Positions 6,641 to 27,760 of a stretch of 64,000 nt of DNA are shown piece after piece. Position numbers and translations under genes: made by a program. Source of the DNA: Luteolibacter sp. LG18 (GTDB taxonomy: Bacteria; Verrucomicrobiota; Verrucomicrobiia; Verrucomicrobiales; Akkermansiaceae). The stretch is taken from the NCBI RefSeq assembly GCF_036322585.1, contig NZ_AP024600.1, positions 1,426,001 to 1,490,000 on the forward strand. Direction: 5' to 3'. Position 1 is the stretch's first letter. Each line of letters starts with the position of its first letter. Under the pieces are notes generated by a model. That model saw only the letters and a list, made by a program, of their open reading frames with translations, was not told the DNA's origin and searched no databases.

Positions 6641-7774
6641 ATGCTCCGCACCCTCCACCTCCGCGGCTACCGCTCCCTGCTCGACTTCCGGTTGGAACTG
6701 GGGCGCGTGACCGTGGTGACCGGCGGCAATGGCGTCGGGAAGTCCAACCTCTACCGTGCACTGGCGATGATGCAGCGGATGGCGGAGGGGAACTTCGCCG
6801 CGGCAATCGCGGCCGAGGGCGGCATGCCAAGCGTGGCCTGGGCGGGACAGCGGAAAAAGGACAAGCCGATCCGGGTGGAGTGGGAGCTGGAGCACGACTT
6901 CTTCCACTACACGATGGAGTGCGGATTGGTTCCCACTGTTCCCGGACAGGACACCGACTTCCGCACCGATCCGGATCTCAAACAAGAAAGCCTGCGCCTG
7001 CACCAGAAGGGCAAGGGACGGGAAGTCGCGCGTCGCAAGGGGCCCGCCGTGCAGCTCCGTAACCGCGAAGGGGTGTTCGAGTCTTCGCCGCTGCCGCTGC
7101 ATGCACCGGAATCGATGCTCTCGGAAATCCGGGACGGGATTGAGTTCCCGGGACTTTCCGCGGCACGGGAGATCCTGCTGTCGTGGCGGTTCTACCACCA
7201 GTTCCGCACGGACCTGGATTCCATCCTCCGTCGTCCGCAGGTCGGCGCATGGTCACCGGTCTTGGCCCACGACGGAGCGAATCTCGCGGCGACCCTGCGC
7301 ACCATCGTCGAGACTGGTCGCGGCGAACCATTGCGGGAGGCCGTGGAGCAGGGTTTCCCCGGCACCCGCTGGAGGACGCTCGATGCAAACGCGCGCTTTC
7401 AGCTCCAGATCCTGCGTCCGGGCCTGAAGCGCTGGATGGACGCCAGCGAGTTGTCCGATGGCACGCTGCGTTTTTTTTGCCTGTGCGCCGCGCTACTCAC
7501 CCCGAAGCCGCCGCCACTGATCGTGCTCAATGAACCAGAGAACAGCCTGCATGCCGGACTGATGCCGGCACTCGCGGGATTGATTGCCGCCGTGCCGCCG
7601 GAGACCCAATTGATTGTCGTCACCCACTCCGAGGCCCTGGCCCGAGAGATCGGAGAGCGGACGGATTCCCGAAAAATCGACCTCATTAACCAAGACGGCG
7701 AAACCCGCCTCGCCGAGCACGCGGGTCCGCGCCGGGTGTGGACCTTCAGCGGACGCGATGAGGATGATGATTGA
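6641..7774 (+). CDS. AAA-family ATPase (AAA_21 / RecF-like)
   Basis: This 377-residue ABC-like ATPase starts at MLRTLHLRGYRSL. The P-loop GGNGVGKSN lies near residue 29 and a C-terminal Walker B/D-loop region reads VLNEPENSLHAGLMPAL, followed by VVTHSEALA, the H-loop. This is the layout of stand-alone OLD/RecF-type predicted ATPases (COG4637-like). The acyltransferase-like gene downstream begins near its stop, and the two may form an operon. Some ATPases of this class work in phage defence or repair, but nothing here shows that directly. Confidence 0.8.
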   Translation: MLRTLHLRGYRSLLDFRLELGRVTVVTGGNGVGKSNLYRALAMMQRMAEGNFAAAIAAEGGMPSVAWAGQRKKDKPIRVEWELEHDFFHYTMECGLVPTVPGQDTDFRTDPDLKQESLRLHQKGKGREVARRKGPAVQLRNREGVFESSPLPLHAPESMLSEIRDGIEFPGLSAAREILLSWRFYHQFRTDLDSILRRPQVGAWSPVLAHDGANLAATLRTIVETGRGEPLREAVEQGFPGTRWRTLDANARFQLQILRPGLKRWMDASELSDGTLRFFCLCAALLTPKPPPLIVLNEPENSLHAGLMPALAGLIAAVPPETQLIVVTHSEALAREIGERTDSRKIDLINQDGETRLAEHAGPRRVWTFSGRDEDDD

Positions 7775-7848
7775 GGGTTCCTCCGCGTGAGCCGCGGATT
7801 TTCGTCGTGCCCCATCCCACCGGAGAGCATGATGCAAGGGTCTCCCCC

Positions 7849-8913
7849 ATGACCCGCACGGAAACCGCGCTTTCTCCCCTGATCCGCAATGCGGAGGCGA
7901 CCTTGGTGGAACATGTCGTGGAAGGAGTCCAGGTGCCCGTGATCATCCCGGACCTCGATCCGACATTGCCGCCCGCCGAGCGCTGTTGGACCACCTGCCT
8001 GGAGTCCGCGGTGGTGGGATTCGTGATGGACGAATGGCGGGCGAAGCGGAGGCCCACGGGACTGGCGGCGGTGCTCGGAAATGCCGCGGCGGGAGTGCTG
8101 TCCTGCGGTCCATGGCAGCGCGCGGTGCAGGTCGGCAGCCTGCCTTTCTCCACCACGCTGCGCTCGGAAGAGGATGAACGGGCGATGTGGCGGCTGCTGC
8201 CGGAACTGCGTGAGGAGATGCCGGAGCGCCCGTTCGCGATCCGCCATGTGTTGCCGGACGAGGTGCCCGCGGAATGGCGGGCGGAGACGGTGCTACTGCC
8301 CGCCCGGGTGGTCTATCTCCAGGATTTCACGGATGGCCAAGCTCCCCCGAGCAAGGATTACCGCCGGGACCTCAAGCGCCTGAATGTTTCCGGGTTGGTT
8401 CATCTAACAGATCCGGATTTCGACAACGGCCGCGTGAACGAGGTGATCGGGCTTTACCGCCAGCTCTACCGGGACCGCTACACGATCCGGCATCCGGACT
8501 ACACGCCCGGGATGATCGAACTGGCCCGGCAACGCGGCTGGCTGTCGCTCGGCGGGCTGGCCGATCCGGCGAATGGTCGGTTGCTGGGGTTCTTCGGCAT
8601 CCATGCCGGGGGGCGCGTGATGACCACACCCATCCTCGGCCACGACACGACCCTGCCGCAGAAAGCCGCGCTTTACCGGCAGCTCTCCGCGATGGCCACC
8701 GAGCACGCGATGCGGGAGCGGATGTGGGAAAATGCCTCGAGCGGTGCGGGGGACTTCAAGCGCCGCCGGAATTTCAAGCCGGTGCTGGAGTATCTGCTGG
8801 TGCTGCCCCCGCTGGCCGGGCGGCGGCGCTTCAGCGACCGGGCCATCCTGAAAGCGTGTGGGAAGATGACCAAGCGGGTGACGATGGAGGACTTCATCGC
8901 CGCAGGCGGATGA
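7849..8913 (+). CDS. GNAT/FemAB-like acyltransferase-type protein
   Basis: This is a 354-residue protein read from the ATG at 7849; an extended start at TTG 7771, overlapping the ATPase stop, is also open. The second half has a GNAT/FemAB-like pattern: DYRRDLKRL, LYRQLYRDRY, a strand segment GRLLGFFGI, and SSGAGDFKRRRNFKP near the end, as in peptidoglycan- or lipid-modifying acyltransferase families. The first half is not recognised. The gene follows the AAA ATPase closely, so the two are probably co-expressed. The substrate is unknown. Confidence 0.6.
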   Translation: MTRTETALSPLIRNAEATLVEHVVEGVQVPVIIPDLDPTLPPAERCWTTCLESAVVGFVMDEWRAKRRPTGLAAVLGNAAAGVLSCGPWQRAVQVGSLPFSTTLRSEEDERAMWRLLPELREEMPERPFAIRHVLPDEVPAEWRAETVLLPARVVYLQDFTDGQAPPSKDYRRDLKRLNVSGLVHLTDPDFDNGRVNEVIGLYRQLYRDRYTIRHPDYTPGMIELARQRGWLSLGGLADPANGRLLGFFGIHAGGRVMTTPILGHDTTLPQKAALYRQLSAMATEHAMRERMWENASSGAGDFKRRRNFKPVLEYLLVLPPLAGRRRFSDRAILKACGKMTKRVTMEDFIAAGG

Positions 8914-9012
8914 GCCGCCATGGCCCGCAGTTGTGACCGGCTTGAACAGCGTGCATGGACCGGGAGCCATGGCGGCTTGCAGGGGCCGCGGCAACCGGCC
9001 ATTTTCTCCGCC

Positions 9013-9882
9013 ATGTCCGACCTTCCCGCTTGCGTCCGCCTGACCCACCCGGCCGAGAACTACCCGGTCCTGGAGATCGAACACCCGTCCTGCCGGGCGA
9101 AGGTGGCGCTGCACGGCGCGCACGTGATGGAGTGGACCCCGGCGGGCCACGAGCCGGTGCTCTACCTGAGCCCGAAGACCGGCCTCAAGGAGGGCAAGGC
9201 GATCCGCGGCGGCATCCCGGTGTGCTGGCCGTGGTTCGGTCCGCATCCGTCCGACTCCACCAAGCCCGCGCACGGCTTCGCCCGCGGGAAATTTTGGAAG
9301 CTGCTGGGCTGCCGGGACGAGGGCGCCTCGGTGGAGCTGCGGTTCGGCCTGAAAGCCGACGAGCAGACCCGCGCGCTGTGGCCGCACGAGTTCGAGGCGA
9401 TCGTCGAAGTCCGCCTCGGCGCGGAGCTGCACGTTTCCCTCGCCGCCCACAACACCGGCACGGAGCCGTGGGTGGAAACGGCCGCCCTGCACACCTATCT
9501 CACCATCAGCCACGTCGATGAAATCGAGATCACCGGCCTGAACGGCGCGACGTTCCTTGAGAAAGCCGGCGGCCTGAACGTCCCCGGCGACCAAGCCGGT
9601 CCGGTGCGGATCGTCGGCGAGGTCGACCGTGTCTACGACTCCACCGCCGACCTGGTGCTGCGCGATGACGCGCGCGTGATCCACGTCCACAAGCACGGCA
9701 GCGGCTCGACGGTGGTGTGGAATCCCGGCCCGGAAAAGGCCGCCACGCTGGGCGACCTGCCGCTGGAGGACTATCCGCATTTCGTCTGCATCGAGGCGGC
9801 CAACGGCCCCGGCGCGGAGGTCACCGTGGCCCCCGGCGCCCACCACGTGCTGCGCACCCGGATCACGGTCGAGCGGTCTTGA
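9013..9882 (+). CDS. D-hexose-6-phosphate mutarotase (YeaD-like)
   Basis: This 289-residue aldose 1-epimerase-fold protein interconverts the anomers of hexose-6-phosphates such as glucose-6-phosphate in the cytoplasm. Family marks are KVALHGAHVMEWTP, GKAIRGGIPVCWPWFG with the PAHGFARG segment after it, ALHTYLTI, and VVWNPGPEKAATLGD. The usual length is about 290 aa and the gene is full length. The ATG at 9013 gives the expected N-terminus. No clear operon partner is present. Confidence 0.9.
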   Translation: MSDLPACVRLTHPAENYPVLEIEHPSCRAKVALHGAHVMEWTPAGHEPVLYLSPKTGLKEGKAIRGGIPVCWPWFGPHPSDSTKPAHGFARGKFWKLLGCRDEGASVELRFGLKADEQTRALWPHEFEAIVEVRLGAELHVSLAAHNTGTEPWVETAALHTYLTISHVDEIEITGLNGATFLEKAGGLNVPGDQAGPVRIVGEVDRVYDSTADLVLRDDARVIHVHKHGSGSTVVWNPGPEKAATLGDLPLEDYPHFVCIEAANGPGAEVTVAPGAHHVLRTRITVERS

Positions 9883-19523: not shown

Positions 19524-20510
19524 ATGAACCCCGAACGCGCCGATGGCCCCCAGCGCCGTCTCCAGCCCGACCCGGAGACGCTCCAGATCCTGGCCCACAC
19601 CTTCGACCCCCACGTGGCGGCGCTGCTGGCGTCCTACGCCCAGGTCGGCGGACTGAACCACCGCGACGCCCTCGACATGCCGTCGACCGGCGCGATCGGC
19701 AACATCTGCCGGGACCTGCTCAAGATCCTCTTCCCCGGCTTCCACGACGATGACGCGATCCAGGAGGACACCCTGGAATGCATCACCCGCAAGCGCCTCG
19801 TGCGGGTGGTGGAGCGCCTCACCGATCAGGTGAAAAAGAGCGTGAACATCGGCAAGCAGTTGGGCGGTGACGATCCGGTGCCGGGGATCATGCAGCGGTT
19901 CTGCAAGTCCCTGCCAATGGTCCGCGAACTGCTGCGCACGGACATCGAGGCCGCCTACGAAGGCGACCCGGCGGCGACCTGCCACGAGGAGATCATCCTT
20001 TCGTATCCATGCATTGAGGCCATCGCCATCCAGCGCGTGGCCCACCGGCTCTACCGCCTCGGCGCGCCGATCATCCCTCGGATGATGACGGAGTGGGCGC
20101 ACTCCCGCACCGGCATCGACATCCACCCGGGCGCGCGCATCGGCGCGGGCTTTTTCATCGACCACGGCACCGGCGTGGTGATCGGGGAGACCTGCGTGAT
20201 CGGCAACCACGTGAAGCTTTACCACGGCGTGACGCTCGGCGCGCGCAGCTTCGAGAAGGACGAGCAGGGCCACATCGTGAAGGGCCTTAAGCGCCACCCG
20301 AACGTGGAGGACAACGTCACCATCTATCCGAACTCCACCATTCTCGGCGGGGAAACGGTCATCGGCGCGAACAGCACCATCGGCGCGAACGTGTTCCTGA
20401 TGCACAGCGTGCCCGCGCACTCGCTGGTGGTGTATGAGGAGAAGCAGCTCAGCATTCTCAACAAGAAATCCCGCCATCCGAAACCGGATGATTTGGATTT
20501 CGTGATTTGA
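19524..20510 (+). CDS. Serine O-acetyltransferase (SrpH/EpsC type), copy 1
   Basis: This 328-residue enzyme makes O-acetylserine from serine and acetyl-CoA, the carbon precursor of cysteine. The long helical N-terminal domain (about 1-200) is followed by the left-handed beta-helix with hexapeptide repeats: HSRTGIDIHPGARIG, GFFIDHGTGVVIGE, CVIGNHVKLYHGVTLG, and a final GANVFLMHSVPAHSLV. The C-terminus ends in LDFVI, as in the second copy at 24.3 kb. Size and domain order match the long SATs found beside family 2A encapsulins. It lies 503 bp upstream of the shell gene, so it may be a separate transcript. Confidence 0.9.
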   Translation: MNPERADGPQRRLQPDPETLQILAHTFDPHVAALLASYAQVGGLNHRDALDMPSTGAIGNICRDLLKILFPGFHDDDAIQEDTLECITRKRLVRVVERLTDQVKKSVNIGKQLGGDDPVPGIMQRFCKSLPMVRELLRTDIEAAYEGDPAATCHEEIILSYPCIEAIAIQRVAHRLYRLGAPIIPRMMTEWAHSRTGIDIHPGARIGAGFFIDHGTGVVIGETCVIGNHVKLYHGVTLGARSFEKDEQGHIVKGLKRHPNVEDNVTIYPNSTILGGETVIGANSTIGANVFLMHSVPAHSLVVYEEKQLSILNKKSRHPKPDDLDFVI

Positions 20511-21013: not shown

Positions 21014-21961
21014 ATGAGCCCACAGCCCAACAACTCCGCCCCGCTCAGCCTGAGCGCCCAATCCGCCCGCAATCTGGCCACCGCCACCGTGACCCCACCG
21101 CAGTGGGATGAGATCACGCCGCGCTGGCTGCTGAAACTGCTGCCCTATGTCGATGTCGACGGCGGCGTCTACCGCGTCAACCGCGTGAAGCAGAAGGAGG
21201 GCGCGCCGACGCTCGACCTGCTGACCGTGGACGATGGCGAACCGAAGCTGCCCGCCACCTTCGTGGACTACGAGGAGGACCCGCGCGAGCACCACCTCAG
21301 CACGATCCAAACCGTGCTCCACACCCACACCCGCATCACCGATCTCTACAGCAACGCGATCGACCAGCTCCGCGAGCAGGTCCGCCTGACGGTGGAGGCG
21401 GTGAAGGAGCGCGAGGAGTGGGAACTCCTCAACCACCCGCAGTTCGGCCTGCTGCACGAGGTCGCCCCGGAGCAGGTGATCAAGACCCGCAAGGGCCCGC
21501 CGACGCCGGACGATCTCGACGAGCTGCTGGCGAAGGTGTGGAAGAAGCCCGCCTTCTTCCTGGCGAACCCGAAGACCATCGCCGCCTTCGGCCGTGAAGC
21601 CACCCGCCGAGGCGTGCCGCCGCCAACCGTGACGCTGTTCGGCTCGCCGTTCATCACCTGGCGCGGCATTCCGCTGATCCCGACCAGCAAGATCGAGGTC
21701 GATGACAAGGGCAAGACGAGTATCCTCCTGGTCCGCGTGGGCGAAGGCCAGCGCGGCGTGGTCGGCCTGCAGAAGGCCGGCGTCACCGGCGAGATCGAGC
21801 CGGGCCTGTCGGTGCGCTACATGGGCACGAACGAGCGCTCGCTGGCCTCGCACCTGGTGACCCGCTACTTCTCGGTGGCGGTGCTGGGTGAGGACGCGAT
21901 CGCGCGCCTCGATGATGTCTTCGTCGGCAACTACCACGAGTATGTCTATCCCAAGGCTTGA
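21014..21961 (+). CDS. Family 2A encapsulin shell protein (SrpI-like)
   Basis: This 315-residue HK97-fold shell protein self-assembles into a protein nanocompartment. The sequence follows the SrpI type of family 2A: N-terminal arm with SAQSARNLATATVTPPQ, ITPRWLLKLLPYVDV, FVDYEEDPREHHLSTIQTV, HTRITDLYSNAIDQLREQVR, GPPTPDDLDELLAKVWKKP, AAFGREATRRGVPPPTVTLF, FITWRGIPLIP, and EPGLSVRYMGTNERSLASH. It ends in a short HEYVYPKA tail. The cysteine desulfurase start overlaps its 3' end by 20 bp, so shell and cargo are translationally linked. In Synechococcus and Acinetobacter such shells enclose a cysteine desulfurase, and in the latter they store elemental sulfur. The identification is strong; sulfur storage here is inferred. 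Confidence 0.93.
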   Translation: MSPQPNNSAPLSLSAQSARNLATATVTPPQWDEITPRWLLKLLPYVDVDGGVYRVNRVKQKEGAPTLDLLTVDDGEPKLPATFVDYEEDPREHHLSTIQTVLHTHTRITDLYSNAIDQLREQVRLTVEAVKEREEWELLNHPQFGLLHEVAPEQVIKTRKGPPTPDDLDELLAKVWKKPAFFLANPKTIAAFGREATRRGVPPPTVTLFGSPFITWRGIPLIPTSKIEVDDKGKTSILLVRVGEGQRGVVGLQKAGVTGEIEPGLSVRYMGTNERSLASHLVTRYFSVAVLGEDAIARLDDVFVGNYHEYVYPKA

Positions 21962-23738
21962 TCCCGGTGCCCTCTCCGGCAGCGCGGATCCCTTCGGCAC
22001 CGCGTTGATCACGCGGCTGGCGAACGAGCTGTTCCGCGAGGGCAGGCACGCGCCGTCGTCGCCGGTGTCGCCCCCGACCACCCTCGCGGGCGTTCCGGCG
22101 AACGGTCCCGCCGTACCCACCGGCCCGGCCGCGGCTCCTTCGCCGGAAAGCTCCGACATCGGGCTTTCCGGGGGCTTCCCGACCGCGGCCCCCTCGTCCC
22201 CGCCGCCGGTGCATCCGACGGTGGTGGGCGCGGCCCCGCACTCCCAGGCGCATGACAATGCCACCGATTCCGGCGGCCACGAGAAAGGCTCCACGGATTC
22301 GTATGAGTTCGGCGAGCCGCGCTCGTACACGGACACCTTCCACAGCCACGTGCCGGAATCGCGCGGCCGCGATTTCCCGGCGGAGACACGCTGGAGCGAT
22401 CATCCGCAGCCACCGGTCGGATTGCCGGGCCTCAACGAACCGCAGTTCTATTTCCTGGAAAGCGTGCGCGAGGTTTCCGCGCCCGCGTTCCGAGGTGAAG
22501 ACGCGCCGGCGAAGGCGGCGCTCGCGCCCTTCGACGTGCAGGGCGTGCGCAAGGACTTCCCCGCGCTGCACCAGAAGGTGAACGGGCGGCCCCTGATCTG
22601 GCTCGACAACGCGGCCACCACCCACAAGCCGCACGCGGTCATCGACGCCACTTCCTCGTTCTACTCGCGGGACAATTCGAACATCCACCGCGCGGCCCAC
22701 GTGCTGGCGGAACGTTCGACCGCCTTGTTCGAAGCGGGCCGCGAGAAGGTGCGGCAGTTCCTCGGCGCGGGGGACAAGCACGAGATCGTGTTCCTGCGCG
22801 GCACCACCGAGGGCATCAACCTGATCGCGAACAGCTACGGCCGCCAGAACATCGGCGAGGGCGACGAGATCATCCTCACCACGCTGGAGCATCACGCGAA
22901 CATCGTGCCGTGGCAGTTGCTCGCGCAGCAGACCGGCGCGGTGATCCGGGTGGTGCCGATCAACGACCGCGGCGAGCTGATCCTGGAGGAATACGTGCGC
23001 CTGCTGAACCCGCGCACCAAAATCGTGTCCGTGACCCACGTTTCCAACGCGCTGGGCACTGTGAACCCGGTGGAACAGATCATCGCGCTGGCCCATGCAC
23101 ACGGCGTGCCGGTGGTGGTGGATGGCGCGCAATCGACTCCGCACATCCCGATCAATGTCACGGCGCTGGACGCGGACTTCTTCGTGTTCTCGGCGCACAA
23201 GATCTTCGGGCCGACCGGGATCGGCGCGCTCTACGCGAAGGCGCACCTGCTGGAATCGATGCCGCCCTGGCAAGGCGGCGGCCACATGATCAAGGACGTC
23301 ACCTTCGAGCGCACGGTGTATCAAAGCGCGCCGGAGAAGTTCGAGGCCGGCACCCCGGACATCGCCGGGGTGGTGGGACTCGGCGCGGCGATCGATTACC
23401 TCACGGCCACCGGCATCCCCGCGCTGGCGGCCTACGAGCACACGCTGCTCGAGTACGCCACCGAGGCGCTCTCCACGGTGCCGGGCCTGCGTCCGATCGG
23501 CACGGCGGCGAACAAGGCCAGCGTGCTGTCGTTCGTGATCCCCGGCATTCCGAACGAGAACATCGCGCGGCACCTCGACCAGCACGGGATCGCCGTGCGG
23601 GCCGGGCACCACTGCGCGCTGCCCGCCCAGCGGCACTTCGGACTGGAGACCACCGTCCGGCCGTCGCTGGCGTTCTACAACACCCACGAGGAGGTCGATC
23701 TCCTGGTGGAGGTCCTGAAGAAACTTCCACGCCGCTGA
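21942..23738 (+). CDS. Encapsulated SufS-like cysteine desulfurase with N-terminal cargo-loading domain
   Basis: This 598-residue PLP enzyme removes sulfur from cysteine, giving alanine and a persulfide. Residues about 1-195 are low-complexity, rich in Pro, Ser, Gly and Ala, and predicted disordered, apart from short conserved-looking stretches such as GTALITRLANELFREG near residue 20 and FGEPRSYTDTFHSHVPE. This is the cargo-loading extension expected for family 2A encapsulins. From FDVQGVRKDFP on, the SufS/CsdA domain shows WLDNAATTHKP, TTLEHHANIVPWQ, VDGAQSTPH, the PLP lysine in FSAHKIFGPTG (Lys420), and the persulfide cysteine in RAGHHCALP (Cys558). The ATG at 21942 lies inside the encapsulin gene. 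Confidence 0.92.
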   Translation: MSIPRLDPGALSGSADPFGTALITRLANELFREGRHAPSSPVSPPTTLAGVPANGPAVPTGPAAAPSPESSDIGLSGGFPTAAPSSPPPVHPTVVGAAPHSQAHDNATDSGGHEKGSTDSYEFGEPRSYTDTFHSHVPESRGRDFPAETRWSDHPQPPVGLPGLNEPQFYFLESVREVSAPAFRGEDAPAKAALAPFDVQGVRKDFPALHQKVNGRPLIWLDNAATTHKPHAVIDATSSFYSRDNSNIHRAAHVLAERSTALFEAGREKVRQFLGAGDKHEIVFLRGTTEGINLIANSYGRQNIGEGDEIILTTLEHHANIVPWQLLAQQTGAVIRVVPINDRGELILEEYVRLLNPRTKIVSVTHVSNALGTVNPVEQIIALAHAHGVPVVVDGAQSTPHIPINVTALDADFFVFSAHKIFGPTGIGALYAKAHLLESMPPWQGGGHMIKDVTFERTVYQSAPEKFEAGTPDIAGVVGLGAAIDYLTATGIPALAAYEHTLLEYATEALSTVPGLRPIGTAANKASVLSFVIPGIPNENIARHLDQHGIAVRAGHHCALPAQRHFGLETTVRPSLAFYNTHEEVDLLVEVLKKLPRR

Positions 23739-23742
23739 AACC

Positions 23743-24276
23743 ATGAGCACGATCACTCCCGTTGCCCTCCAACAGCGTTTCGCCGCCCGGCCGGACCTCG
23801 TCCTGCTGGATGTGCGGACGCCCGCGGAGTTCGACGAAGTCCATGTGCCGCAGGCACGGCTGGAACCGCTCGACCGGTTCCAGTCGGAGGCCACCATCGC
23901 GGCGCTGGGTTTGCCGAAGGACCAGCCGCTCCACCTGCTGTGCCGGTCCGGCGCGCGGGCCGCGCAGGCCGCGGCGAAATTGCAGGCCGCGGGCTACGAA
24001 CCCGTCGTGGTGGAAGGCGGCACACTCGCGTGGATCAAAGCCGGACTGCCGGTGGTCCGCGGCGAGCGCAAGGTGATCGGCCTCGAACGGCAGGTGCGCA
24101 TCGCCGCCGGGGCACTCGTGCTCACGGGTGTGATCCTGTCACTCACTGTCCACCGCGGGTTCATCGGGCTGTCCGGTTTCGTCGGCGCGGGCCTCGTCTT
24201 CGCCGGGATCACCGACTGGTGCGGGATGGGCCTGCTCCTCGCGAAAGCTCCCTGGAACCAACGCCGACCGTCATGA
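23743..24276 (+). CDS. Rhodanese fused to a two-helix membrane domain (DUF2892-like)
   Basis: This is a 177-residue sulfurtransferase starting 4 bp after the desulfurase stop. Residues 1-108 form a rhodanese domain (LVLLDVRTPAEFDEVHVPQA, active-site loop LLCRSGARAA, VVEGGTLAWIKAGLPV). Residues 115-177 hold two membrane helices (IAAGALVLTGVILSL and FIGLSGFVGAGLVFAGI) ending in CGMGLLLAKAPWNQ, like DUF2892. It should place sulfane sulfur chemistry at the inner membrane. It overlaps the second SAT gene by 4 bp. Rhodanese genes are known companions of family 2A encapsulins; the membrane tail means it is probably outside the shell. Confidence 0.9.
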   Translation: MSTITPVALQQRFAARPDLVLLDVRTPAEFDEVHVPQARLEPLDRFQSEATIAALGLPKDQPLHLLCRSGARAAQAAAKLQAAGYEPVVVEGGTLAWIKAGLPVVRGERKVIGLERQVRIAAGALVLTGVILSLTVHRGFIGLSGFVGAGLVFAGITDWCGMGLLLAKAPWNQRRPS

Positions 24277-25253
24277 GCCACGATTCGTTTCCAAAAGGCC
24301 GCTCGCAACCGAACGAGCGGACGCTGGCGATCCTCGACCATTCCTTCGACCCGTATGTCACCAGCCTGCTGGCGTCCTACGAGAAGATGGGCGGCCTGAA
24401 CATCAGCGACTCGCTGAACATGCCGTCGAAGCGGGCGATCGGCGAGATCTGCCGCGACCTGCTCCAGATCCTGTTCCCCGGGTTCCACGACGACGACTCG
24501 ATCGCCAACAGCTCGCTGGAAACGGTGACGCGCGAGCGCCTGACCAGCGTGGTCGAGCGGCTCGCCGACCAGGTGCGGAAGAGCGTGCGCATCGGCAACC
24601 CGGATCTGCCCACCGGCCGCACGCCGCCGATCATGCAGCGGTTCTGCAAGGCGCTGGCGGTCGTCCGCGAGCTCCTGCGCACCGACATCGAGGCCGCCTA
24701 CGCGGGCGACCCCGCGGCCAGCAGCTACGATGAGATCATCCTGTCCTACCCGTACATCGAAACCATCGCCATCCAGCGGCTGGCGCACCGGCTCTACCGC
24801 CTCGGCGCGCCAATCATCCCGCGGATGATGACGGAGTGGGCGCACTCCCGCACCGGCATCGACATCCACCCGGGCGCGCGCATCGGCCTCGGCTTCTTCA
24901 TCGATCACGGCACCGGCGTGGTGGTCGGGGAAACCTGCGTGATCGGGAACCACGTGAAGCTCTACCACGGAGTGACGCTCGGGGCGCGCAGCTTCGAGAA
25001 GGACGACGACGGCAACCTGGTGCGCGGCACCCGCCGCCATCCTCAGGTGGAGGACCACGTCACCATCTATCCGAACTCGACCATCCTCGGCGGAAACACC
25101 CGCATCGGCGCGCACTCGACCATCGGCGCGAACGTTTTCCTGATGAAAAGCGTGCCAGCCCACTCGCTGGTGATTTATGAGGAGAAGCAGCTGAGCATCT
25201 TCAACAAGAAGGAGAAGCCCCGCCAGGACAACGGCCTCGATTTCGTGATCTGA
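24273..25253 (+). CDS. Serine O-acetyltransferase (SrpH/EpsC type), copy 2
   Basis: This 326-residue paralogue of the SAT at 19.5 kb keeps the same architecture: a helical N-terminal domain (DHSFDPYVTSLLASYEKMGG) and a C-terminal beta-helix (GIDIHPGARIGLGFFIDHG, GNHVKLYHGVTLGARSF) ending in LDFVI. The two differ mostly near the N-terminus and at scattered positions, so the duplication looks old and both copies appear intact. The ATG overlaps the rhodanese stop (ATGA) and the stop overlaps the cysK ATG by 1 bp, so these genes are one operon. It supplies O-acetylserine to CysK. Confidence 0.92.
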   Translation: MSHDSFPKGRSQPNERTLAILDHSFDPYVTSLLASYEKMGGLNISDSLNMPSKRAIGEICRDLLQILFPGFHDDDSIANSSLETVTRERLTSVVERLADQVRKSVRIGNPDLPTGRTPPIMQRFCKALAVVRELLRTDIEAAYAGDPAASSYDEIILSYPYIETIAIQRLAHRLYRLGAPIIPRMMTEWAHSRTGIDIHPGARIGLGFFIDHGTGVVVGETCVIGNHVKLYHGVTLGARSFEKDDDGNLVRGTRRHPQVEDHVTIYPNSTILGGNTRIGAHSTIGANVFLMKSVPAHSLVIYEEKQLSIFNKKEKPRQDNGLDFVI

Positions 25254-26254
25254 TGAACCCACCCACCTACCACGGCGTCGACGGCCATGTCGGCAACACC
25301 CCGCTCATCCACCTGCGACGCCTGTCGGAGCTGACCGGCTGCGAGATCCTCGGCAAGGCGGAGTTCATGAACCCCGGCGGCTCGGTGAAGGACCGCGCGG
25401 CGCTCGGCATCATCACCGATGCCGAGGAGCGAGGCCTGCTGAAGCCGGGCATGACCATCGTGGAAGGCACCGCCGGCAACACCGGCATCGGGCTCACCGT
25501 GGTCGGCGCGGCCCGCGGTTACCGCACCGTGATCGTCATTCCCGAAACCCAGGCCCCGGAGAAGATCACGCTGCTGCGCACGCTCGGCGCGGATGTCCGC
25601 ACCGTGCCCGCGAAACCGTACAGCGATCCGGACAACTACAACCACATCGCGCGGCGGCTGGCCGAGGAGAACGGTTGGTTCTGGGCGAACCAGTTCGACA
25701 ACACCGCCAACCGCGAGGCCCACCGCCGCACCACCGGCCCGGAAATCTGGGAGCAAACCGGCGGCACGGTGAGCGCGTTTTCCGCCGCCATCGGCACCGG
25801 CGGCACGCTCGCGGGCGTGTCCCAATTTCTGAAGGAGAAGAATCCCGCCATCACCACCGTCTGCGCCGATCCCTACGGCGCGGCGATGTGGTCGTGGTTC
25901 ACCAACGGCCACACCGATGACGACGACGGCGATTCCGTGGCGGAAGGCATCGGCCAGAGCCGCGTCACCGCGAACGTCGCCGATGCGCCGGTGGACAAGG
26001 CGTTCCGCATCGATGACCAGACGGCGCTGACGATCCTCAACCAGCTGCTGCGCGAGGAGGGCCTGTTCCTCGGCCTCTCCAGCGGCATCAACATCGGCGG
26101 CGCGCTGGGCCAGGCGATCGAAGGCGGCCCGGGCCAGACCATCGTGACGATCCTCTGCGACAGCGGCCACAAGTATCAGTCGAAGCTCTACGACCGCGAA
26201 TGGCTCGCGGAAAACGGCCTCGATCCGGATCTGCCGTTGGAGTCGCTGTTCTGA
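25253..26254 (+). CDS. cysK: Cysteine synthase (O-acetylserine sulfhydrylase)
   Basis: This 333-residue fold-type II PLP enzyme joins sulfide and O-acetylserine to form cysteine. Marks are the PLP lysine in NPGGSVKDRAALG, the substrate loop GTAGNTGIGL, the phosphate-binding GTGGTLAG, and GLSSGINIGGAL. It closes the operon SAT-CysK beside the encapsulin and matches SrpG of the Synechococcus sulfur-regulated set. The insertions AMWSWFTNGHTDDDDGDS and AEENGWFWANQFDN fit the CysK/SrpG branch. A truncated copy of its 3' half lies 1.1 kb downstream. Confidence 0.94.
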   Translation: MNPPTYHGVDGHVGNTPLIHLRRLSELTGCEILGKAEFMNPGGSVKDRAALGIITDAEERGLLKPGMTIVEGTAGNTGIGLTVVGAARGYRTVIVIPETQAPEKITLLRTLGADVRTVPAKPYSDPDNYNHIARRLAEENGWFWANQFDNTANREAHRRTTGPEIWEQTGGTVSAFSAAIGTGGTLAGVSQFLKEKNPAITTVCADPYGAAMWSWFTNGHTDDDDGDSVAEGIGQSRVTANVADAPVDKAFRIDDQTALTILNQLLREEGLFLGLSSGINIGGALGQAIEGGPGQTIVTILCDSGHKYQSKLYDREWLAENGLDPDLPLESLF

Positions 26255-27370: not shown

Positions 27371-27760
27371 CCCGCGAGGCACTCAACGCCGCGCCACCGG
27401 CCCGGAAATCTGGGAGCAAACCGGCGGCACGGTGAGCGCGTTTTCCGCCGCCATCGGCACCGGTGGACAAGGCGTTCCGCGTCGACGACCAAACGGCGCT
27501 CACGATCCTCAACCAACCCCTGCGCGAGGAAGGCCTGTTCCTCGGTCTCTCCAGCGGCATCAACATCGGCGGCGCGCTACGCCAGGCGATCGAAGGCGGC
27601 ACGGGCCAGACCATCGTCACAATCCTCTGCGACAGCGGCCACAAGTACCAGTCGAAGCGCTACAACCGCAAATGGCTCGCCGAGGACGGCCTCGATCCGG
27701 ATCTGCCGCTGGAGTCGATCTTCCAAGCGTAGCGGAAGTGGTGACACTTCAGGCTGGGCA
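27371..27760 (+). pseudogene. Internally deleted duplicate of the cysK 3' half
   Basis: Bases 27371-27465 closely match cysK at about 25706-25802; the sequence then jumps to the region matching 25990-26254 and a further 30 bp of downstream DNA. About 190 bp are lost at the junction, where CCGGCGG and CCGGTGG in the parent give a short homology. No start or N-terminal PLP domain remains. An open frame survives from about 27463 to the TAG at 27730-27732, reading LTILNQPLREEGLFLG, but it lacks the PLP lysine and cannot be an active enzyme. Substitutions relative to cysK show the copy is not recent. Confidence 0.85.

Follow-up and report, generated by a model that had tools for sequence, protein, structure and literature searches.

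An N-terminal extension predicted to be disordered, the probable encapsulation tag of a cysteine desulfurase, begins inside a family 2 encapsulin shell gene of Luteolibacter sp. LG18

The closest described relative of the system studied here is the family 2A encapsulin of Synechococcus elongatus PCC 7942, composed of the shell protein SrpI and the cysteine desulfurase CyD (PMC8049743). Residues 1-225 of CyD load sfGFP, removal of the N-terminal domain abolishes loading, and the first 100 residues load less well. The authors name two motifs, LARLANEFFS and AASPYYFLDG, and a fragment with only the latter fails to load. Serine O-acetyltransferases and rhodaneses are the most enriched accessory genes in family 2A desulfurase operons (n=1281), according to the available part of PMC8346489. 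We analyzed a 64,000-nucleotide stretch, hereafter the window, of the 5.8 Mb single-contig genome of Luteolibacter sp. LG18 (NZ_AP024600.1, positions 1,426,001 to 1,490,000). It encodes a family 2 encapsulin shell and a SufS-like cysteine desulfurase with a 195-residue N-terminal extension. The shell type, the adjoining SufS-like desulfurase, the long disordered extension with two motifs and the neighbouring acetyltransferase, cysteine synthase and rhodanese genes are all shared with SrpI/CyD as far as the available text of PMC8049743 describes that system. Family 2 encapsulin/desulfurase systems with a loading tag are therefore known in kind. In contrast to SrpI/CyD, the window shell belongs to a separate clade, the desulfurase starts inside the shell gene, whereas CyD starts 234 bases after the end of SrpI, and the extension carries two further islands that are weak or absent in canonical systems. 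For comparison, 109 shell-desulfurase loci were gathered, the window included; a further shell locus, L073, shows no desulfurase on its 3.5 kb contig.

The original prediction, made from the sequence of the window, held that about 195 low-complexity residues precede the SufS domain, that ordinary SufS lacks them and that they load the enzyme into the shell. The first two statements hold: P, A, S, G and T make up 55% of the 195 residues and 36% of the catalytic part, and the Pfam Aminotran_5 (class-V aminotransferase) domain begins at residue 219. The best SufS-type PDB chains align only from about residue 193-203, and the closest other homologue in the genome (48% identity) only from residue 191, its open frame being too short for such an extension. 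The confidence of the AlphaFold2 model (predicted local distance difference test, pLDDT; 31 sequences) is below 50 for residues 1-17, 33-115, 119-121 and 124-193. The main exception within residues 1-193 is a predicted helix at 21-35, which coincides with the first conserved island; its amphipathicity is weakly above that of shuffled sequences (0.059 of shuffles as high) and is not relied on. Both published motifs are recognizable in this long disordered extension of a SufS-like domain, the combination that characterizes CyD-type cargo. Searches for PDB relatives of the extension and for a second protein with the same tag in this genome returned nothing at E<=10.

By homology to the tested CyD, the third statement, that the extension loads the desulfurase into the shell, is strongly supported; the function of such a tag is known from this homologue. 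We consider it very probable (roughly 0.85) that residues 1-195 form a disordered encapsulation tag. The tag would hold the desulfurase on the inner wall of the encapsulin encoded just upstream, with the helix of island 1 as the main anchor and a contribution from the FYFL-containing island 4. What weighs against this assignment is the score of the desulfurase against NF041166, the NCBIfam model of family 2A cargo desulfurases, which at 787.1 bits stays under the cut-off of 800. The match begins at residue 149, so the model covers the window extension poorly. In a desulfurase tree from which L043 and L126 were omitted, the canonical desulfurases group together (SH-aLRT support 94), and the long branch of L130 joins the outgroup. 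The extension could also be translated low-complexity padding without function, or the product of a wrongly chosen start codon; its low complexity, its G+C content (0.71 vs 0.67 in the catalytic part) and the mean column identity of its alignment (26%) would be in keeping with that. Against this, the islands are conserved far above shuffled sequences, islands 2-4 contain residues that are invariant over 25 rows, and the extension is homologous to the tested CyD tag, which leaves this explanation highly improbable.

The conservation of the islands was measured by scoring each 13-residue segment of the extension against 96 homologous extensions, each also shuffled 100 times. The homologues comprise 32 Verrucomicrobiota, 7 Nitrospira, 6 other 2B, 44 Methylobacterium-type 2B and 7 canonical 2A sequences; set aside from the count were the window itself, L099 (too near), the duplicates L100 and L104, and L074, L108, L124, L126, L129 and L135-L138. 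The canonical counts are lowered by Variovorax locus L121, since its record places the start 68 bases before the shell end and its extension as used here lacks island 1. The original prediction had named two islands as candidate targeting motifs, to be checked by aligning extensions. The first, TALITRLANELF, is conserved and is the counterpart of the published LARLANEFFS: segment ALITRLANELFRE reaches a mean z of 6.0 in Verrucomicrobiota, 10.1 in Nitrospira, 6.7 in other 2B, 5.0 in Methylobacterium-type and 4.7 in canonical extensions, well above shuffled homologues in all five groups. The second, RSYTDTFHSHVPE, falls to the prediction's own refutation test, with mean z of 0.3, 0.2, -0.2, 0.0 and 0.1 in the same group order and z>3 in 2/32 Verrucomicrobiota and in none of the other groups (0/7, 0/6, 0/44 and 0/7). 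It can be recognized by eye in L099, a locus of the same genus with a 97% identical shell that stands outside the scan count. This lack of conservation rules RSYTDTFHSHVPE out as a targeting motif.

Three conserved islands had been passed over, and one of them, SGGHEKGSTDSYEFGEPR, lies directly to the left of RSYTDTFHSHVPE. The island 2 segment PPPVHPTVVGAAP has a mean z of 5.6 in Verrucomicrobiota. The island 3 segment KGSTDSYEFGEPR has mean z values of 6.9 in Verrucomicrobiota, 6.7 in Nitrospira, 2.8 in other 2B, 0.1 in Methylobacterium-type and 0.7 in canonical extensions. Island 4 (segment PQFYFLESVREVS, with PQFYFL; mean z 4.4 in Verrucomicrobiota) matches the second published motif. Over 25 aligned extensions V90, H91, G111, G124, E125, P126, Y170 and F171 are invariant. 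Letter patterns, drawn up after the scan was seen and therefore descriptive, give the same distribution: FGEP-type letters occur in 33/33 Verrucomicrobiota, 7/7 Nitrospira, 3/5 PVC 2B, 8/45 Methylobacterium-type and 1/8 canonical extensions, and PPVHP-type letters in 33/33, 4/7, 4/5, 39/45 and 1/8, respectively. Judged from these sequences, islands 2 and 3 are hallmarks of the Verrucomicrobiota/Nitrospira lineage and are weak or missing in canonical SrpI systems; unlike the window cargo, that of the Methylobacterium type is mostly without island 3. Neither island is among the motifs named in the available text of PMC8049743. A literature search, which missed most subscription papers, found no paper describing them. 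A 2024 paper on an Acinetobacter SrpI system and elemental sulfur reportedly exists and may hold further motif data. By eye, three Nitrospira extensions (L026, L027 and L032) carry the FGEP module twice, as if modules can be added.

The window shell (315 residues) matches PF19307 continuously and has no insertion and no cNMP family match in Pfam. Its closest solved chains are 8t6r and 6x8m, the latter named SrpI, and among named records its nearest encapsulin relatives come from Verrucomicrobiota. Under the rule in use, a shell with no inserted cNMP/CBD domain belongs to family 2A (PMC12407261, available part); by that definition the window shell is 2A, and it lacks the E-loop insertion that defines 2B. 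It clears the NCBIfam cut-offs of both families, with 464 bits vs 380 for NF041162 (2A) and 446 vs 400 for NF041163 (2B), the latter in two stretches. Its best segments are 70-77% identical to the shells of 2B desulfurase encapsulins (Methylobacterium and PVC types), and it is 57% identical to SrpI. The 2B shells carry the cNMP insertion, seen as a gap of ~150 residues in the match, which the window shell lacks. Trees of 72 shells were built from the full and the core region, with Methylobacterium-type shells thinned to 7/46 and L100, L104 and L108 excluded. All 12 canonical shells group together (96/95, core-region tree), and a 53-row clade (100/99) contains the window shell, another 40 shells without a cNMP domain and 12 shells of 2B desulfurase systems. 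Forcing all 53 cNMP-less shells (41 of that clade and the 12 canonical ones) to be monophyletic was rejected (p-AU, approximately unbiased test, 0.003). By phylogeny the window shell is thus not 2A, and its core shares descent with 2B shells; in these trees the names 2A and 2B follow architecture rather than descent. Branching inside the clade is unresolved and several 2B rows are long-branched, so that either one loss of the cNMP domain with regains or several losses would fit. Plasmid-borne 2A systems of Azospirillum, Variovorax, Paraburkholderia, Methylosinus and Aliarcobacter have the shell-desulfurase adjacency of the window, and several have overlapping starts; unlike the window, they fall on the canonical side of the shell tree and their islands 2 and 3 are weak or absent.

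The proposed cargo-contact residues of the shell also differ between the two clades. SrpI F262 and Y273 lie near suggested cargo density (PMC8049743, available part) and correspond to Y269 and H280 in the window shell. Tyrosine and histidine occupy these sites in 53/53 rows of the clade (34 Verrucomicrobiota, 7 Nitrospira, 5 PVC 2B and 7 Methylobacterium-type), and phenylalanine and tyrosine in 12/12 canonical rows; the 7 remaining 2B rows are mixed at the first site and have tyrosine at the second. Twenty-six positions are fixed in the cNMP-less rows of the clade and absent from canonical rows, and 6/26 lie within residues 269-286. The PPVHP and SYEFGEPR islands could be further shell-contact modules of this lineage, matched to the changed docking face, with the stretches between the islands serving as spacers. 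We marginally favour such shell contact by the two middle islands. Against it stands the fixation of Y269 and H280 in Methylobacterium-type rows as well: with the whole clade sharing the change and most Methylobacterium-type cargo lacking island 3, the change does not by itself explain islands 2 and 3.

This failure of the changed face to track island 3 would suit a different division of labour, in which the extension is a tag that binds the shell through islands 1 and 4 alone, and PPVHP and SYEFGEPR act on the enzyme (dimer, active site or sulfur release) or on another partner. The motifs published for loading are of the island 1 and 4 types only (PMC8049743, available part), and canonical systems load cargo though islands 2 and 3 are weak or absent there. 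On the other side, both islands are distant from the catalytic part and fall where disorder is predicted, and they do not follow the operon partners. Island 3 is kept in 7/7 Nitrospira loci without a match of at least 40 bits to the window rhodanese (other rhodaneses could escape), and rhodanese, acetyltransferase and cysteine synthase are all unseen in the 11.7 kb of L025. For these reasons islands 2 and 3 are disfavoured as docking sites for the operon rhodanese or acetyltransferase. Two further loci are little informative: none of the three genes is seen in L048, for which there is hardly any upstream sequence, and the downstream sequence of L036 ends after 528 bases. Overall, restriction of shell binding to islands 1 and 4 is possible but seems to us the less likely arrangement.

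As the original prediction stated, the desulfurase begins 20 bp before the shell stop: its ATG is at 21942-21944, the shell TGA is at 21959-21961, and the overlap is in the +1 frame. Start codons were picked by rule, with manual assignment in ten loci. For the 35 Verrucomicrobiota rows the cargo ATG so chosen is at -20 (26), -8 (4), -14 (2), -23 (1) or -17 (1), frameshifted L108 apart. The 2B systems share the overlapping start, there mostly at -14 (47/53). In 16/35 Verrucomicrobiota rows the in-frame stop upstream is so near (open frame from -41 to -29) that no ATG other than the overlapping one lies between it and the shell stop. Overlapping ATGs are always in the same frame, within the codons of the shell tail Y-[HY]-[ED]-Y. 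Counted without conditioning on its presence, the tail ATG is found in 99/105 loci, where the synonymous codon use of the same genes would lead one to expect 58.1; L100, L104, L108 and L129 (tail without the pattern) are not in this count. By group, it occurs in 34/34 Verrucomicrobiota (18.9 expected), 51/52 2B (28.1) and 9/12 other loci (6.3). When the base after the last Tyr codon is not G, the ATG comes from the adjacent His/Tyr codon instead, in 13/13 Verrucomicrobiota loci.

Of 145 relatives, 11 have the shell and 12 a match to the extension profile, with both in 10; profile matches among the other 134 relatives number 2. This co-occurrence speaks for the extension being a tag for the shell. 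In G121 the match is weak (2.8e-4) and lies in a different-looking frame. Across the phylum (387 genomes) the 5 profile matches all fall within the 12 shell-bearing genomes. These searches scored limited first-look candidates per genome (22 and 8), and misses are possible. In another relative (G132, L108) a frameshift splits the shell gene into two frames, the tagged desulfurase is open and there is no profile match; this may be a decaying shell or an assembly error.

Genome G029, of the same genus, encodes a tagged desulfurase with all four islands (L158, G029:C37:8000-20845, 7527-9348), 75-76% identical to those of loci L105 and L103. At odds with a tag that serves a shell, no shell over the cut-off was found in its assembly (92% complete, 950 contigs). 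Directly upstream lies an eight-codon frame, ATG AGT GCC CCC CAT GAA TAT GCC TAA (M-S-A-P-H-E-Y-A), in which a shell-like start runs straight into a shell-like tail. A 39-base stretch upstream matches L105 at 82%, and the palindrome GCTCANNTGAGC lies 174 bases before the frame, compared with 175 before the shell start in L103 and 183 in L105 (one mismatch). The arrangement suggests that the shell was deleted in frame and the start codon of the cargo spared; a misassembly is also possible. The palindrome, which is absent from the window, is a possible regulator site of L103, L105 and L158.

The original prediction also proposed that the overlap ties cargo production to shell production, and this part stands only as plausible. 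The cargo ATG arises out of frame from codons of the conserved Y-H-E-Y tail, and ribosomes that end the shell could restart on the cargo, keeping the two proteins in proportion. The conserved start position and the 4-base and 1-base overlaps further down the operon are consistent with this, and on balance we lean towards translational coupling. Several observations weigh against it. Overlaps of -4 and -1 dominate in general, and -8 to +6 has been called indicative of termination-reinitiation (PMC10666635, available part); the -20 of the window falls outside this range, which 4 Verrucomicrobiota loci reach with -8, so coupling is plausible rather than established. Nitrospira show no excess of the tail ATG (5/7 vs 4.8 expected), and 6/105 loci have no embedded ATG (S. 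elongatus, Variovorax L121, Methylosinus L123, Nitrospira L029 and L031, and L131). The rows are related, so their counts are not independent and 99/105 vs 58.1 is no probability. The absence of a Shine-Dalgarno sequence was rejected as evidence of coupling: one is also absent at the shell, rhodanese, upstream acetyltransferase and cysteine synthase starts and at 48/72 long open reading frames of the window (first candidate starts). The overlap may instead be a neutral by-product of gene packing and of a shell tail conserved for the shell's own sake, with no role in the amount of cargo. Overlaps are common, the frame phase seen in the window is the commoner one among long overlaps (PMC10666635, available part), and S. 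elongatus works with a distance of 234 bases. A neutral overlap does not readily account for the ATG being kept in far more loci than expected, for its replacement through the neighbouring codon, or for G029 retaining start codon and tail after its apparent shell loss; we regard it as a credible but less probable account than coupling.

Downstream of the desulfurase the operon continues with a rhodanese, a serine O-acetyltransferase and a cysteine synthase (Table 1), which includes both of the accessory types most enriched in family 2A operons. The junctions are tight: a 4-base gap is followed by a 4-base (ATGA) and a 1-base (TGATG) overlap. Two serine O-acetyltransferase genes (19524-20510 and 24273-25253), 75% identical over 317 residues, bracket the shell, desulfurase and rhodanese genes, and the nearest relative, L099, shows just the downstream copy in the stretch compared. 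An 89-codon fragment at 27463-27732 resembles the C-terminal part of the cysteine synthase. The extra acetyltransferase and the cysteine synthase fragment suggest local duplication and decay.

Table 1. Coordinates in the window of the encapsulin operon and of the elements of the desulfurase extension.
Feature	Position	Strand	Basis or remark
Family 2 encapsulin shell gene, without cNMP domain	21014..21961	+	PF19307, 344 bits
SufS-like cysteine desulfurase with N-terminal extension (probable cargo)	21942..23738	+	NF041166, 787 bits vs cut-off 800
20-base shell/desulfurase overlap	21942..21961	+	cargo ATG out of frame from shell tail codons TAT GTC (Y-V)
N-terminal extension, residues 1-195, predicted mostly disordered	21942..22526	+	pLDDT, composition
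Island 1, PFGTALITRLANELFRE, residues 17-33	21990..22040	+	predicted helix 21-35; corresponds to published LARLANEFFS
Island 2, GLSGGFPTAAPSSPPPVHPTVV, residues 74-95 (LSGGFP...PPVHP)	22161..22226	+	V90 H91 invariant, 25 rows
Island 3, SGGHEKGSTDSYEFGEPR, residues 110-127 (SGGHxxGSxxSYEFGEPR)	22269..22322	+	G111, G124-E125-P126 invariant, 25 rows
Second island of the original prediction, RSYTDTFHSHVPE, residues 127-139	22320..22358	+	not conserved
Island 4, NEPQFYFLES, residues 165-174	22434..22463	+	corresponds to published AASPYYFLDG; Y170 F171 invariant, 25 rows
Desulfurase catalytic part, residues 196-598	22527..23735	+	Pfam, PDB alignments, predicted structure
Rhodanese with YgaP-like membrane part	23743..24276	+	4-base gap after desulfurase
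Serine O-acetyltransferase	24273..25253	+	ATGA overlap with rhodanese gene
Cysteine synthase	25253..26254	+	TGATG overlap with acetyltransferase gene

Because the function of such extensions is known in kind, the loading role itself is no surprise. We tentatively suggest, at somewhat less than even odds, that the locus represents a third kind of family 2 desulfurase compartment. It would combine a 2B-side shell without the cNMP domain, a changed docking face, a four-module tag with PPVHP and SYEFGEPR as new shell-binding modules, and a cargo-to-shell ratio set by a start codon in the shell tail. The conserved tag of this branch has four islands rather than two, and the invariant residues listed above are the exact ones to mutate. 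Should the middle pair of islands bind the shell, it would supply extra loading tags for a cage whose docking face is different. An inexpensive test of whether reinitiation sets the ratio of cargo to shell is offered by the start codon in the shell tail.

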